Positions 44,359 to 63,814 of a DNA stretch of 64,000 bases are shown piece after piece. The DNA is taken from the NCBI RefSeq assembly GCF_003633715.1, contig NZ_RBIE01000002.1:62001-126000 (forward strand). Reading direction: 5' to 3'. The DNA is from Thermovibrio guaymasensis. Its GTDB lineage: Bacteria > Aquificota > Aquificia > Desulfurobacteriales > Desulfurobacteriaceae. Each line of letters opens with the position of its first letter. Position 1 is the stretch's first letter. A program made the translations under genes and the position numbers. The notes beneath the pieces were generated by a model. It ran no database searches. It saw only the letters and a list, made by a program, of their open reading frames with translations, and had not been told where the DNA came from.

Positions 44359-44892
44359 TCAGTAAACCGTGTAATTGACGTAGACGATTCTTTGGGGAGG
44401 TTCATCGGGAATGAAGACCTTTCCGATATTTCCGTCATTGTCAAGGTCTGCCTCTGCCTTCATTAAGATATCTATAACTCCTTCTCTTACCTGAGTAAAG
44501 CCGTTAGCAACAACGCTGTCATCGTAGCAGGCCTCCACATCGGCCATACACTGGGAAACGGTTCTACTGCCATTCGCCTTTGCAACGGCATACCTATACC
44601 TGATAACACCTTGAGGTCTAAAACCTATAAGGTAAAAGTAAGAGTTACTGTTCCAATCCTCCGTACCCTGAGGGGGGGGTATGTTTTCAGGGGACCAGTA
44701 ACAGGTAACGTACCACCCCTTCTCCGCCCTGTAGATCTCCTCCAGTTTTCTTAGAACTCCGAGGTTTTCAAGGGCTTCTACTCTTTTAGCTTGAAGGACG
44801 TACCTTTTGTAGTTGTACCCCGCTATTCCCGCAAGGATTCCTAGTAAAAGGAGTACGATTAAGACCTCTAAGATTGTAAACCCTCTTCTCAA
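44359..44892 (-). CDS. Type IV pilin-like protein (minor or second pilin)
   Basis: This 177-residue prepilin has a very short leader MRRG followed by FTILEVLIVLLLLG, cleaved after Gly4 with the conserved Glu at mature position 5. The soluble part shares the IGFRPQG-type segment with the major pilin, so the two are paralogues. Cysteines in VTCYW and VEACYD could form a disulfide. It follows the major pilin's terminator, so it likely uses weaker or separate transcription, and it leads into the ABC genes. Confidence 0.88.
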   Translation of the reverse strand: MRRGFTILEVLIVLLLLGILAGIAGYNYKRYVLQAKRVEALENLGVLRKLEEIYRAEKGWYVTCYWSPENIPPPQGTEDWNSNSYFYLIGFRPQGVIRYRYAVAKANGSRTVSQCMADVEACYDDSVVANGFTQVREGVIDILMKAEADLDNDGNIGKVFIPDEPPQRIVYVNYTVY

Positions 44893-44966: not shown

Positions 44967-44993
44967 CCTTGGGAGAGCAAGGATTAAGCCAAA

Positions 44994-45587
44994 TTAAAAC
45001 TCGTTAGCACCTGCATCAACGGGGTCAGGATTAATCTTGGTGTGCTCGTCGTCCCTATAGAATCCGGCTTTGATGCCGTCTCCGTCAAGGTCGCCGGTAG
45101 CGGCAATCGTAATATCAACCTGTCCATCGTGAACATCAACACCGTTTTGAATGTTACCGTTTGTGTCAATTGAAGTGTCGGTGTTGTAGGCGGTTGCATC
45201 GTTGGCCATGCTGTTACCGGAAGTTGCAGGTGATTGAGGAGCCCCCTCGGTTACACCGTAAACGTAGTAAACATCCCCTGCAGGCCTAAAGCCGATAAGG
45301 TCAAATCCTGCACCGGGAGTTTGAACCTGCCAAGGGTGCTTTGTAGGTCCGGGAGTAACTCCAGTAGGAGCCGCCGAACACTGGGCGTACTGACCGTGCT
45401 CTGCTGCAAAGCTCTCCTCAGCAGTTACGATTGCCCCAATGTTCTCCTTGGCCTCAACGGTTTTTGACTTGAGCTGGAACTTCCTGTACTGGGGAATAGC
45501 AATTGCTGCAAGGATTGCAATAATCGCTACAACAACCATCAGCTCAATAAGCGTGAAACCTTTACGGAAGTTTGATAAGTTTTTCAT
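44994..45587 (-). CDS. pilA: Type IV major pilin (PilA-like)
   Basis: This 197-residue prepilin has the leader MKNLSNFRKG, cleaved after Gly10, then FTLIELMVVVAIIAILAAIAIP with Glu at mature position 5. The soluble part is rich in Ala, Thr, Asp and Gly and ends with an Asp-rich DLDGDG loop that may bind calcium. The ATG has an AGGAGG SD. Upstream are a sigma-54 promoter and two phased activator-like sites, and a strong terminator follows. This fits a highly expressed, regulated major pilin. Confidence 0.92.
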   Translation of the reverse strand: MKNLSNFRKGFTLIELMVVVAIIAILAAIAIPQYRKFQLKSKTVEAKENIGAIVTAEESFAAEHGQYAQCSAAPTGVTPGPTKHPWQVQTPGAGFDLIGFRPAGDVYYVYGVTEGAPQSPATSGNSMANDATAYNTDTSIDTNGNIQNGVDVHDGQVDITIAATGDLDGDGIKAGFYRDDEHTKINPDPVDAGANEF

Positions 45588-45622
45588 GTTTACCTCCTAA
45601 ATGAATTTTAGTTTGCTTAAGT

Positions 45623-45638
45623 AGCAAGACATATGCCA
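45623..45638 (-). promoter_or_regulatory. Sigma-54 (-24/-12) promoter of pilA
   Basis: On the minus strand the sequence TGGCATATGTCTTGCT matches the RpoN consensus TGGCAYRN4TTGCW in every defined position, with GG and GC 12 bases apart. The predicted start near 45612 gives a 25-base leader with an AGGAGG SD. Confidence 0.8.
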
Positions 45639-45679
45639 GTTAATAAGGGAAAATAAAGAAGAAACTTTCTAATTAAGAG

Positions 45680-45694
45680 TGACGATTTTTGTCA
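45680..45694. promoter_or_regulatory. Activator-like site 1 upstream of pilA
   Basis: TGACGATTTTTGTCA has TGAC/GTCA ends around seven bases. It is centred about 75 bases before the predicted start, a usual place for enhancer-binding proteins such as PilR. It resembles the second copy at 45703-45717. Confidence 0.5.
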
Positions 45695-47089
45695 ATCAGG
45701 ATTAACAATTTTTGTCAAAAAAAAAAGACTCTCATAGAGAGAAGGAACAAAAGGAATAATAGAGAATATCTTATTAACTTCTTTCTTAAAAACTTCTTGA
45801 ACCCTCCTTTCACCATGAACTAAAACAACGTCGGTATTACTCTTTACAGTTTCCCTAAGCCAGCTTAAAAGCTGAGGTTGGTCTGCGTGGGAGGAAAAGC
45901 CGTTTATAGTGTAAACCCTAGCGTTAACTTTAACTATCTCGTTAAAGACTTTAACTTTCTTCTTTCCCTCAACTATCTCCCTTCCCAGAGTTCCCTCTGC
46001 CTGGTAGCCTACAAACACTATTGAATTCCTCTTATCCCAAATCCTGTGCTTTATGTGGTGGAGGATCCTACCGCCGGTACACATCCCGTTACCAGCTATT
46101 ATTATTGCTCTACCCTCATAAGTGTTAATTCTCTTTGACTCCTCAACAGTCCTTGTAAAGTGAAGGTAAGGAAAAGAAAAGAGATCCCTTTTCCTCCTTA
46201 GTTCCCTAAGAACCCTCCCCTCAAGGCACTCTGGATGGCGGTTAAATGTCTTTGTAATTGAGATTGCAAGGGGAGAATCAAGGAAGACTTTGCAGGGAGG
46301 GAGCTCCCCCTTTTCATACATTTCCTTCAGTATGTAAAGGATATCTTGTGCTCTCTCAAGGGCAAAGGTAGGAATTAAAACGACCCCACCCCTTTCAAAG
46401 GTTGAAAGAACCGCCTCTTTAAACTCCTTAACCGAATCCTCAAAGCTCTTGTGCTTCCTGTTTCCGTAAGTAGTCTCTATTAAAACCAAATCGGCCTTCG
46501 GAGGAAGCTCAGGGTCCCTTATTAAAGGCTTACCTCTATTCCCCAAATCCCCGCTAAAGAGGACTCTTTTGCCCTCAACCTCAATCTCAACGAACTCAGA
46601 ACAAAGGATATGACCTGCATCGTGAAAACGGAACCTTACAGGGCCAATTTGGTACCACTTCTTAAAGTCACAGGCCCTAAAGTGGCTGAAAGTGTCAAAG
46701 ACGTCATCTACAGTGTAGAGGAGTTCCTTCGGTTCCTTCCCTTCCCTCAGCCTCCTCCTGTTTACAGTTTTAAGGTTCTCCTCTTGAACTTGAGCTGCAT
46801 CCATGAGTATTAACCTTGATACCTCAATGGTTCCAGAGGTCGCGTAAATTTTTCCCTTAAAGCCCCTCTTTACCAGGTAAGGGAGCCTCCCACAGTGGTC
46901 AAGGTGGCCGTGGGAGAGGATTACAAAGTCAACCTTCGATGGATCAAACGTAAACTTAGGGTTAAGGTCTTCAAGCTCTTCACTTCCCTGAAAGAGACCG
47001 CAGTCAAGGAGAAACTTAGCTCCTTTAACTTCAAAGAAGTGGCAACTTCCAGTTACAACCCCTGCTGCTCCGTTAAAAGTAATCTTCAC
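45692..47089 (-). CDS. MBL-fold/beta-CASP ribonuclease-family protein
   Basis: This 465-residue hydrolase has a metallo-beta-lactamase core with the zinc motif SHGHLDH (His60, His62, Asp64, His65) and DAGHIL and FSGDLGN further on. A beta-CASP insert and the final FSSHADQ histidine motif are present. The family (CPSF73-like, bacterial TTHA0252 type) cleaves RNA. Its 3' end contains the two pilA activator-like sites, which thus lie in coding sequence. It overlaps the thioredoxin-like gene by four bases. Confidence 0.88.
   Translation of the reverse strand: MKITFNGAAGVVTGSCHFFEVKGAKFLLDCGLFQGSEELEDLNPKFTFDPSKVDFVILSHGHLDHCGRLPYLVKRGFKGKIYATSGTIEVSRLILMDAAQVQEENLKTVNRRRLREGKEPKELLYTVDDVFDTFSHFRACDFKKWYQIGPVRFRFHDAGHILCSEFVEIEVEGKRVLFSGDLGNRGKPLIRDPELPPKADLVLIETTYGNRKHKSFEDSVKEFKEAVLSTFERGGVVLIPTFALERAQDILYILKEMYEKGELPPCKVFLDSPLAISITKTFNRHPECLEGRVLRELRRKRDLFSFPYLHFTRTVEESKRINTYEGRAIIIAGNGMCTGGRILHHIKHRIWDKRNSIVFVGYQAEGTLGREIVEGKKKVKVFNEIVKVNARVYTINGFSSHADQPQLLSWLRETVKSNTDVVLVHGERRVQEVFKKEVNKIFSIIPFVPSLYESLFFLTKIVNPD
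45703..45717. promoter_or_regulatory. Activator-like site 2 upstream of pilA
   Basis: TAACAATTTTTGTCA matches site 1 at 13 of 15 positions and starts 23 bases from it, about two helical turns, so both sites face the same side of the DNA. It lies within the last codons of the beta-CASP gene. Confidence 0.45.
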
Positions 47090-61302: not shown

Positions 61303-62646
61303 TTACCTTTCTACCTCCCCTTTCTGGGGGAGGTATTTACTCAGCCTGTACCTAAACTCCCTTAAAGTAAGTCCAAGAAGTTTAGCTGCTTTCGTTTTAA
61401 CTCCTCCTGCTTTTTCTAAAGCGGCAAATAGGTAATCCCTCTCAACGTTACTGAGTACCTCCTTCAGATTAACTCCCTCCTCCGGAATCTCTACCCTATT
61501 GACACAGAGCTCCCTACCTCCAGAAAACCCAGCACCTAAAACCCCATCTTCAAGGAGGATAACTTCCCTTTCAACGATATTCTTAAGTTCCCTCACGTTC
61601 CCCTCAAGGGGGAGCTCCATCAAGTAGTTGATAAACCCCGACGAAATCCTCTTAATCTCCTTTCCGTACTTCCTTGAAAACTCCCTGGCAAAGTACTCAA
61701 CCAGAAGGGGAATATCCTCTCTCCTTTCCCTCAAAGGAGGAATCTCAATCACTATAGTTGCCAACCTGTAGTAAAGATCTTCCCTAAAGTTCCCCTTCCT
61801 TATCTCCTCCTTAAGGTTCTTGTTGGTTGCAGCAATAACTCTTACGTCTACCTCTTTCTCCTCAGTTGAACCGAGGGGAATGAACCGTCTTGTCTCAAGG
61901 AACCTTAAGAGCTTAGCCTGGAGAGGAAGGGGCATATCTCCAATCTCGTCAAGGAAAAGAGTTCCTCCATCCGCTTTCTCTATAAGACCCTTTTTATTGG
62001 AGACTGCTCCTGTAAAGGCTCCTCTCCTATAGCCGAAGAGCTCACTCTCTAGAAGTTCTGGAGGAAGGGCAGCACAGTTTATGGCAACAAAAGGAGCTCC
62101 TTTCCGAGGGCTCAAGCTGTGAATAGCCTTTGCAACTACCTCCTTACCAACACCGCTTTCTCCCAGCACAAGAACGTTAACGTCGTAGGGAGCTATCTTC
62201 TTTATCTTTTCCTTTAACCTCTCAATAACCTTACTCCTTCCTATAAGACCGGGAACCTCACTAGAGGAAAAACTCTTTTTTAGAAATATTTTGTCTGAAA
62301 CGTTCCTTATGAGGAGCTTTAAATCGTCTAAATTAAAGGGTTTTTCCACGTAGTCGTAAACTCCAAGCTCAAAGGCCTCCTTAACTGTCTCAGTTGAGGC
62401 AAAAGCAGTAATTATTATCACTTCGGTTTCAGGGGTCTTCTCCTTAATTTCCCTCACAACCTCCATCCCCGAACCGTCGGGAAGGCGCAAATCTACAAGA
62501 ACAAGGTCAAACTCACCTTCCTTTAACTTCTTTCTTGCTTCCTCTAAAGTTTCCGTCTCTTCAACCTGGTAGTTAAAGTCTTCAAGTATCAGTCTAAGTA
62601 TCTCCCTTAAGGAAACTTCATCCTCAAGTATTAGAACTCTCATCAC
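61303..62646 (-). CDS. Sigma-54-dependent response regulator (NtrC/PilR-like)
   Basis: This 447-residue regulator has a receiver domain (phospho-acceptor Asp52, Lys in VEKPF) and an AAA+ domain with Walker A GESGVGKE (162-169). The sigma-54-contacting GAFTGA lies at 209-214, and a Fis-type helix-turn-helix at the end (KTKAAKLLGLTLREFRYRL). It activates RpoN promoters after phosphorylation. Its start overlaps the kinase gene by 23 bases. PilR is the best guess, because the kinase resembles PilS and pilA in this window has a sigma-54 promoter. Confidence 0.92.
   Translation of the reverse strand: MMRVLILEDEVSLREILRLILEDFNYQVEETETLEEARKKLKEGEFDLVLVDLRLPDGSGMEVVREIKEKTPETEVIIITAFASTETVKEAFELGVYDYVEKPFNLDDLKLLIRNVSDKIFLKKSFSSSEVPGLIGRSKVIERLKEKIKKIAPYDVNVLVLGESGVGKEVVAKAIHSLSPRKGAPFVAINCAALPPELLESELFGYRRGAFTGAVSNKKGLIEKADGGTLFLDEIGDMPLPLQAKLLRFLETRRFIPLGSTEEKEVDVRVIAATNKNLKEEIRKGNFREDLYYRLATIVIEIPPLRERREDIPLLVEYFAREFSRKYGKEIKRISSGFINYLMELPLEGNVRELKNIVEREVILLEDGVLGAGFSGGRELCVNRVEIPEEGVNLKEVLSNVERDYLFAALEKAGGVKTKAAKLLGLTLREFRYRLSKYLPQKGEVER
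61312..61338 (+). terminator. Terminator of argG-tig within regulator coding sequence
   Basis: TACCTCCCC (61312-61320) pairs with GGGGAGGTA (61327-61335) around TTTCTG, followed by TTT. It lies 11 bases after the tig stop and inside the last codons of the reverse regulator gene, so it also constrains that protein's tail. Confidence 0.65.
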
Positions 62647-63814
62647 TCTCCCTGTAAATTGGTAACTTCATACTAAACTTAGCTCCTCCCAGAAGGCTCC
62701 TATCAACTAAAATAAAACCGCCCATATCAAAGATAAACTTCTTAACTATTGCAAGGCCAAGACCCGAACCTCCATCCCTCTTTGAAAAGAAAGGCTCAAA
62801 AATTCTACTCCTGTCTTCTTCTTGAACGCCGGGGCCGTCATCTTCAACTGTCAAAACAGCCCAGTTTCCCTCACGGGAAAGAGTTACCCTAACCTTAGTC
62901 TTAGACCACTGAAGAGCATTAATAAGTAAGTTCTCAACTGCTGAGCGCAGAGCTCTAGGATCCGAAAGGACCATAAGGTCTTCCTTACAAACAAAATCCA
63001 TTTCCTTTCCCTTAGGAAAAGTAGATGCAATAACATCCTTTACTACTTTAGTAAGAGAGATAGGAATCCTTTCTTCAGAAGCAGGCTTACCCAAAACCAG
63101 GAAATCCTTTATTATTGAATCCAACCTCTCAGTTTCTCGTTTTATGATCCTAAGCAAATTATCACTCCTTTTACCCTCAAGCATGAGCTCCACAGAACCT
63201 TTAATTGAAGCAAGGGGATTTTTAAGCTCGTGGGCAAGGTCTGCACTTATCTCGTAAAGCCTCTTGTAGAACTCGGCCTCTCTCCTTTCCCTCTCAAGCA
63301 TCCTTATGTACTTTTCCTGAACTTCAAACCTGCTTTTAAGCCTCTTGGCAGCGAGCATCATCAAAATCAGAGCTCCGCTACTTAAGATAAACTGAACGAG
63401 AACGAGGAAGTCAAAACCCCCGTAGACTATCTGAAAGTAGAGAAATTGAAGGAAAACTCCGATAAAGAGAACGGTATACCCGTAGGGAAAGCCCAAAAAG
63501 AGTTCTGAAAAGAAGACGGGAAAGAAGAGGAAGAGGGAAAAGAAAGTGTAGGAAAAAGCTCCCTTAAATACTAATAGGAATAGGAAGAGCTCATCAAGTA
63601 AGAATTCAAAGAGATGGGGCCTCTTGGAGAAGAAGAAAATAAAAGCGCTAACTACAGAGTAAATACTGAGAACGACAAATGAATAATTATCAAAAAAGGC
63701 CTTTGAGACGGAGGAAATTGAAAGGAGGAGGAAGAGGAGGCCAACCGAGAATGTCAGCCTCCCGACCCTGTAAACTAAGTAGAACTTATCAGGGACTAAA
63801 GAGCTCTCACTCAC
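62624..63814 (-). CDS. Membrane histidine kinase (PilS-like)
   Basis: This 396-residue kinase has six hydrophobic segments in its first 155 residues, with no sizeable periplasmic sensor domain. A cytoplasmic HisKA domain follows (His195 in SADLAHELKNPLASIKGS), then an ATPase domain with N-box ENLLINALQWS, DDGPGV and GGSGLGLAIVKKF. This layout is that of PilS, which senses pilin level in the membrane. The start is GTG at 63814, overlapping the purL stop (GTGA). Confidence 0.9.
   Translation of the reverse strand: MSESSLVPDKFYLVYRVGRLTFSVGLLFLLLSISSVSKAFFDNYSFVVLSIYSVVSAFIFFFSKRPHLFEFLLDELFLFLLVFKGAFSYTFFSLFLFFPVFFSELFLGFPYGYTVLFIGVFLQFLYFQIVYGGFDFLVLVQFILSSGALILMMLAAKRLKSRFEVQEKYIRMLERERREAEFYKRLYEISADLAHELKNPLASIKGSVELMLEGKRSDNLLRIIKRETERLDSIIKDFLVLGKPASEERIPISLTKVVKDVIASTFPKGKEMDFVCKEDLMVLSDPRALRSAVENLLINALQWSKTKVRVTLSREGNWAVLTVEDDGPGVQEEDRSRIFEPFFSKRDGGSGLGLAIVKKFIFDMGGFILVDRSLLGGAKFSMKLPIYRESDESSNT

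Follow-up and report, generated by a model that had tools for sequence, protein, structure and literature searches.

The window that we analyzed, a 64,000 nt stretch of the genome of Thermovibrio guaymasensis, a heat-loving member of Desulfurobacteriaceae, carries pilA, a gene for a major type IV pilin, and poses the question of what drives its transcription. A preliminary description of this DNA proposed control by RpoN and a PilS/PilR two-component system; this proposal is supported by the conservation of the sites involved, their co-occurrence with PilR and the location of pilSR beside pilA in sister genera, all of them sequence comparisons, and we estimate at about nine in ten the probability that pilA is under RpoN-PilSR control, with PilR acting at paired operators. 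The pilA gene (44994–45587, minus strand) encodes a product of 197 aa with a GFTLIE prepilin motif and matches to Pfam N_methyl and NCBIfam IV_pilin_GFxxxE. A second, tandem pilin gene (44359–44892, minus strand) accompanies it, as in many relatives, and a strong intrinsic terminator-like hairpin (44970–44947) lies between the two. A one-mismatch −24/−12 before the second pilin gene (44976–44991) was dismissed as a chance match, not being conserved between both pilin genes in relatives. The second pilin of the Hydrogenothermaceae genome G025 (L184, 634–1050) shows an internal duplication of its hydrophobic N-terminal helix (LLELIIVVAILSLLLSI twice). PilA is 87–88% identical to its counterparts in three genomes of another genus (g6) and 48–58% identical to those in two genomes of its own genus, but the DNA of the gene upstream of pilA is closer to the own-genus genome G001 (78%, vs. 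70–72%), to which PilR is closest (84%), suggesting that pilA may have been exchanged between genera.

PilR (61303–62646, minus strand), assigned from Pfam, the phylogeny and the co-occurrence described below, comprises a receiver domain, a sigma-54 AAA+ domain containing the GAFTGA motif already pointed out in the preliminary description, and a Fis-type HTH. The overlapping gene pilS (62624–63814, minus strand) is predicted from domain and hydrophobicity analyses to encode six transmembrane segments, HisKA and HATPase; the six hydrophobic segments (residues 13–154, ahead of HisKA) agree with the PilS layout proposed for this kinase. The PilS of P. aeruginosa has a PAS domain between its membrane part and HisKA, which is not obligatory; in contrast, we found no PAS domain in this position in the window PilS, where HisKA and HATPase were the only domains and HisKA follows at about 34 residues from the last segment. 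We treated the absence of PAS as a variable trait and not as decisive. Also differing from P. aeruginosa, pilSR lies 16 kb from pilA and, as had been claimed, next to purL, the C-terminus of PurL being legible at the end of the window. Linkage of pilSR to pilA is generally common but not obligatory. In Hydrogenothermaceae, pilS-pilR directly precedes pilA in genomes G025, G097, G098, and G102, and lies about 1.7 kb from it in G100, with rpoZ and gmk preceding the pair in several genomes of the family; in Desulfurobacteriaceae, purL and argG-type genes adjoin pilSR. As shown by the sister genera, in which the pair adjoins pilA, the 16 kb separating them in the window reflect a rearrangement. 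This is one among several gene orders, and the operator has remained with pilA. The PilS of genome G108 (L200, 1743–2914) is spread over two reading frames of 191 and 173 aa.

Both rpoN in the genome and a −24/−12 element upstream of pilA are present. The element, TGGCATATGTCTTGCT (45638–45623, minus strand), has 0 mismatches to the RpoN consensus TGGCAYRNNNNTTGCW, in agreement with the preliminary description, and the 1.62 Mb genome contains no other exact match, with 0 matches for the reversed control. Sites with one mismatch are as numerous as expected by chance (36 genome-wide vs. 36 for the reversed control), so that only the exact match, together with its context, is informative, and there is no general excess of RpoN sites. 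We did not find a sigma-70-type promoter in the region upstream of pilA.

Upstream of this promoter are two predicted PilR-type operators, both TGACA-N5-TGTCA-like palindromes with nine of the ten half-site letters: a proximal one, TGACAAAAATCGTCA (45680–45694, minus strand), with TGACAAAAWTTGTCA kept in relatives, and a distal one, TGACAAAAATTGTTA (45703–45717, minus strand), located farther upstream. Their starts are 23 bp apart, in agreement with the two TGAC-N7-GTCA-like sites previously proposed, and such pairs are spaced by 21–23 bp in most relatives; the centers assigned to them, around −75 and −98, hold if transcription starts at the predicted position 45612. Allowing up to one mismatch, TGACAAAAWTTGTCA occurs in three places in the genome, of which two are the operator pair at pilA; palindromes with two or three mismatches were at or below control counts genome-wide, and were therefore left unused. 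Both operators overlap the upstream beta-CASP nuclease gene: its TGA stop codon provides the first three bases of the proximal operator, and its last codons contain the distal one. Among 63 sites, the two half-sites are equally conserved, the core, which was unused in selection, is AAAWT-rich (0.8–1.7 bits), and conservation ends sharply outside the 15 bases. Both operators in the window contain TTGACA, and could thus be read as −35 boxes of tandem sigma-70 promoters, the −24/−12 being fortuitous. Against this, besides the lack of a sigma-70-type promoter in the region, the T preceding TGACA is conserved in just 24 of the 63 sites and no −10 is enriched at 16–18 bp, and both half-sites and the unselected core are conserved; moreover, the −24/−12 is kept at pilA in 35 genomes containing PilR, with variable spacing to the operators. 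We consider the sigma-70 explanation exceedingly improbable. The beta-CASP metallo-nuclease gene itself (45692–47089) scored 422 bits against the model for type VII CRISPR Cas14 (cut-off 800) and 292 bits against aCPSF1, and its product is probably a cellular RNase.

The extent of conservation was evaluated by scanning upstream regions in pilin loci, first of 40 relatives and later of the class as a whole (136 genomes), including Desulfurobacteriaceae (f1, with a Thermovibrio sp.), Hydrogenothermaceae (f3), and Aquificaceae-type genomes (f4). A strict composite element (TGAC-N7-GTCA, 36–66 bases, TGGYAY-N6-TGCT) yielded 17 matches in the 136 genomes, each directly before the major pilin gene, and 0 in the reversed control; these matches were confined to genomes with PilR, with one per genome. 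PilR orthologues scored at least 466 bits over their full length, to which we added a contig-end fragment from G101 (397 bits), and paralogues did not exceed 372 bits. Considering genomes with a readable pilA upstream region, the composite is present in 35 of the 35 with PilR and in one of the 23 without it; this lone genome, G093, is a fragmented MAG with a weak composite. Upstream sequences shuffled under a dinucleotide model contained the composite in 8 of 2320 cases (0.3%). The genomes are related, and a Fisher value for this co-occurrence is consequently overstated; there are roughly three independent contrasts, namely G005 and G015 within Desulfurobacteriaceae (part of g3), g12/g28 within Hydrogenothermaceae, and the Aquificaceae-type genomes. 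In the latter, no PilR scored above the paralogues and the composite is absent; likewise, PilR, the −24/−12 and the palindromes are all gone from G005 and G015. The genomes examined that lack PilR retain rpoN. Conservation upstream of pilA orthologues, suggested earlier as a check, thus extends for the −24/−12 and the paired sites to the family and its sister family. That one-mismatch RpoN sites occur at chance level could favor the idea that promoter and operators are a chance resemblance without function; this idea is already contradicted by conservation across genomes, in addition to the lack of control matches, the distribution of the composite with PilR and its enrichment before pilin genes in other phyla (see below), and we give it next to no credence.

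Three NtrC-type activators score clearly in the genome: PilR, bEBP2 (C1:688003), and bEBP3 (C1:939241). That there are just three, that the bEBP3 gene adjoins a GspG pseudopilin gene (gspG) and that TGAGAAAATTTGTCA occurs at some 2 kb from bEBP2 would be compatible with either paralogue binding the paired sites and PilR having other targets. However, orthologues of bEBP2 and bEBP3 are kept in the two genomes checked, G005 and G015, both devoid of PilR and with neither element in the region upstream of pilA. Also, their recognition helices (GIDEKSLRYKRKKY and GIHRNTLRKKIREL, respectively) differ from the pattern common to the window PilR and pilA-linked PilRs, G(L/I)(T/S)(F/L)REFRYR, although this helix alone would not rule against bEBP2, since identity of the whole HTH to pilA-linked PilRs is 0.50 for PilR and 0.45 for bEBP2 (0.26 for bEBP3). 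In a tree from a quick search, both paralogues fell outside the group (98% SH-aLRT) formed by the window PilR and those PilRs from other phyla whose genes adjoin a pilA with the composite. As to the possibility, raised previously, of another sigma-54 activator at these sites, they co-occur with PilR and not with the other two activators of the genome; we regard binding by bEBP2 or bEBP3 as very unlikely and favor PilR. We also observed an NtrBC-like pair in one gene run with gspG and an rRNA-methyltransferase-like gene (L193, 3203–7116); throughout the family, receiver-AAA activators are repeatedly encoded near a gspG-like gene. A one-mismatch −24/−12 (TGGCACTCCGATTGCT; L192, 6529–6544), flanked by the kinase gene of bEBP2 and an unknown gene, is a possible bEBP2 target.

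The preliminary description held the two operators to be in phase on the helix, which is approximate for this single promoter (23 bp correspond to about 2.1–2.2 turns) and finds its support in spacings across species. Site-to-site spacings are mostly 21–23, and otherwise 32, 41–42, and 73; larger values (69, 94, 95, and 135) come from sites that are distant or weak. Operator-promoter distances in Aquificota, counted between the first bases of the nearest palindrome and of the −24/−12, are 44, 54–57, 64–68, 77, and then 89–132, with a best period of 11.1 bp (R = 0.75), not equaled by any of 3000 random sets that were likewise scanned over periods; at a preset period of 10.5 bp, R was 0.65, with 0 of 20000 random sets as high. 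The result was the same counting each distance once per genus. Whole-turn jumps occur inside genera, with distances of 55, 56, 66, 68, and 77 in g9, 44, 54, and 77 in g10, and 55, 56, and 66 in g1. Operator-promoter distances of about 55, 66, and 77 bp thus correspond to whole helical turns.

The composite is not restricted to Aquificota. When about 85,000 species genomes were scanned for TGACA-W5-TGTCA, 36–66 bases, and TGGCAY-N5-TTGCW, 92 stretches were retrieved, vs. about one expected by chance according to a hand estimate from base-composition arithmetic. Genes with a GFTLIE-type prepilin motif follow 65 of 93 matches (around 70%), and these pilin-linked composites are from Zeta-, Beta-, Gamma- and Deltaproteobacteria, Nitrospirota, Aminicenantes, and Aquificota, with a PilR-like gene nearby in at least 12 of the loci; the match in L285 precedes one further pilin gene, truncated where the locus ends, and three matches were left unassigned. 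The distances in this pilin set, for which the allowed range was 51–81, are 53–59, 65–70, and 74–80, with none at 60–64 or 71–73; at 10.5 bp, a weak signal remains (p = 0.04) if each distinct distance is counted once. About a quarter of the matches precede varied non-pilin genes, including those for an HD-GYP-type protein and, in Victivallales, for a family of VWA/VIT-type proteins, as read from the sequence, indicating that PilR is not the only user of the palindrome and that other activators can use a similar site. In the Victivallales loci L231, L234, and L269, a composite with tandem palindromes precedes the gene for a VIT/VWA-like secreted protein, with an AAA+ activator nearby. We lean toward considering TGACA-N5-TGTCA an ancestral, phylum-spanning PilR operator whose placement has been selected for helical face, moving between species only by whole turns of about 11 bp (44, 55, 66, 77 bp and further). 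If so, these whole-turn moves of an enhancer would be a natural record of short-loop activation of sigma-54.

Under RpoN-PilSR control, pilA would be transcribed by the sigma-54 RNA polymerase from the −24/−12 at 45623–45638, with PilR opening the closed complex. Dimers of PilR would bind the two TGACA-N5-TGTCA operators, on about the same helical face and 55–80 bp upstream of the −24 box, reach the polymerase via a short loop and remodel sigma-54 by ATP hydrolysis. The activity of PilR would be set by the six-segment membrane kinase PilS, putatively through phosphorylation; by analogy with Pseudomonas, PilS would presumably respond to the surface or to the state of the pilin pool in the membrane.

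Such control follows the established RpoN-PilSR mechanism, with a new occurrence in Aquificota. Transcription of pilA in P. aeruginosa involves PilS-PilR, an RpoN-dependent promoter and upstream activator sites (PMC6058289 and references therein), and the window shares with it the six-segment kinase, the NtrC-type PilR, the RpoN promoter of pilA and the upstream sites. Nevertheless, the hallmark of the P. aeruginosa sites, according to PMC6058289 (citing Jin 1994), is TGT-N11-AGA plus GTCT elements, whereas the window sites are TGACA-N5-TGTCA palindromes. The pilA promoter of G. sulfurreducens is RpoN-dependent and PilR is encoded directly upstream of pilA (PMC2725144), the same arrangement as in Hydrogenothermaceae. 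For Geobacter, PMC6058289 quotes a prediction of 54 loci targeted by PilR, in contrast to the one strict composite per genome, at pilA, found here. The nearest solved structures are from Aquifex aeolicus NtrC1/NtrC4 (4l4u, 3dzd, 1ny5), which have the same domain order as PilR but are not PilR orthologues, as befits a family without PilR or the composite. The available portion of a 2025 survey of sigma-54 (PMC12316311) gives PilA enrichment only for Beta- and Gammaproteobacteria. We found no explicit PilR palindrome in the open literature, a scope that excludes Jin 1994 and Krushkal 2010; provisionally, we take both the operator as defined here and its helix-locked position across phyla to exceed what was described in that literature. 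Our analyses place the RpoN-PilSR-pilA circuit in Aquificota, supply a sharp candidate operator for PilR that is usable across phyla, and provide evolutionary evidence for helical-face locking of enhancer position at a sigma-54 promoter.
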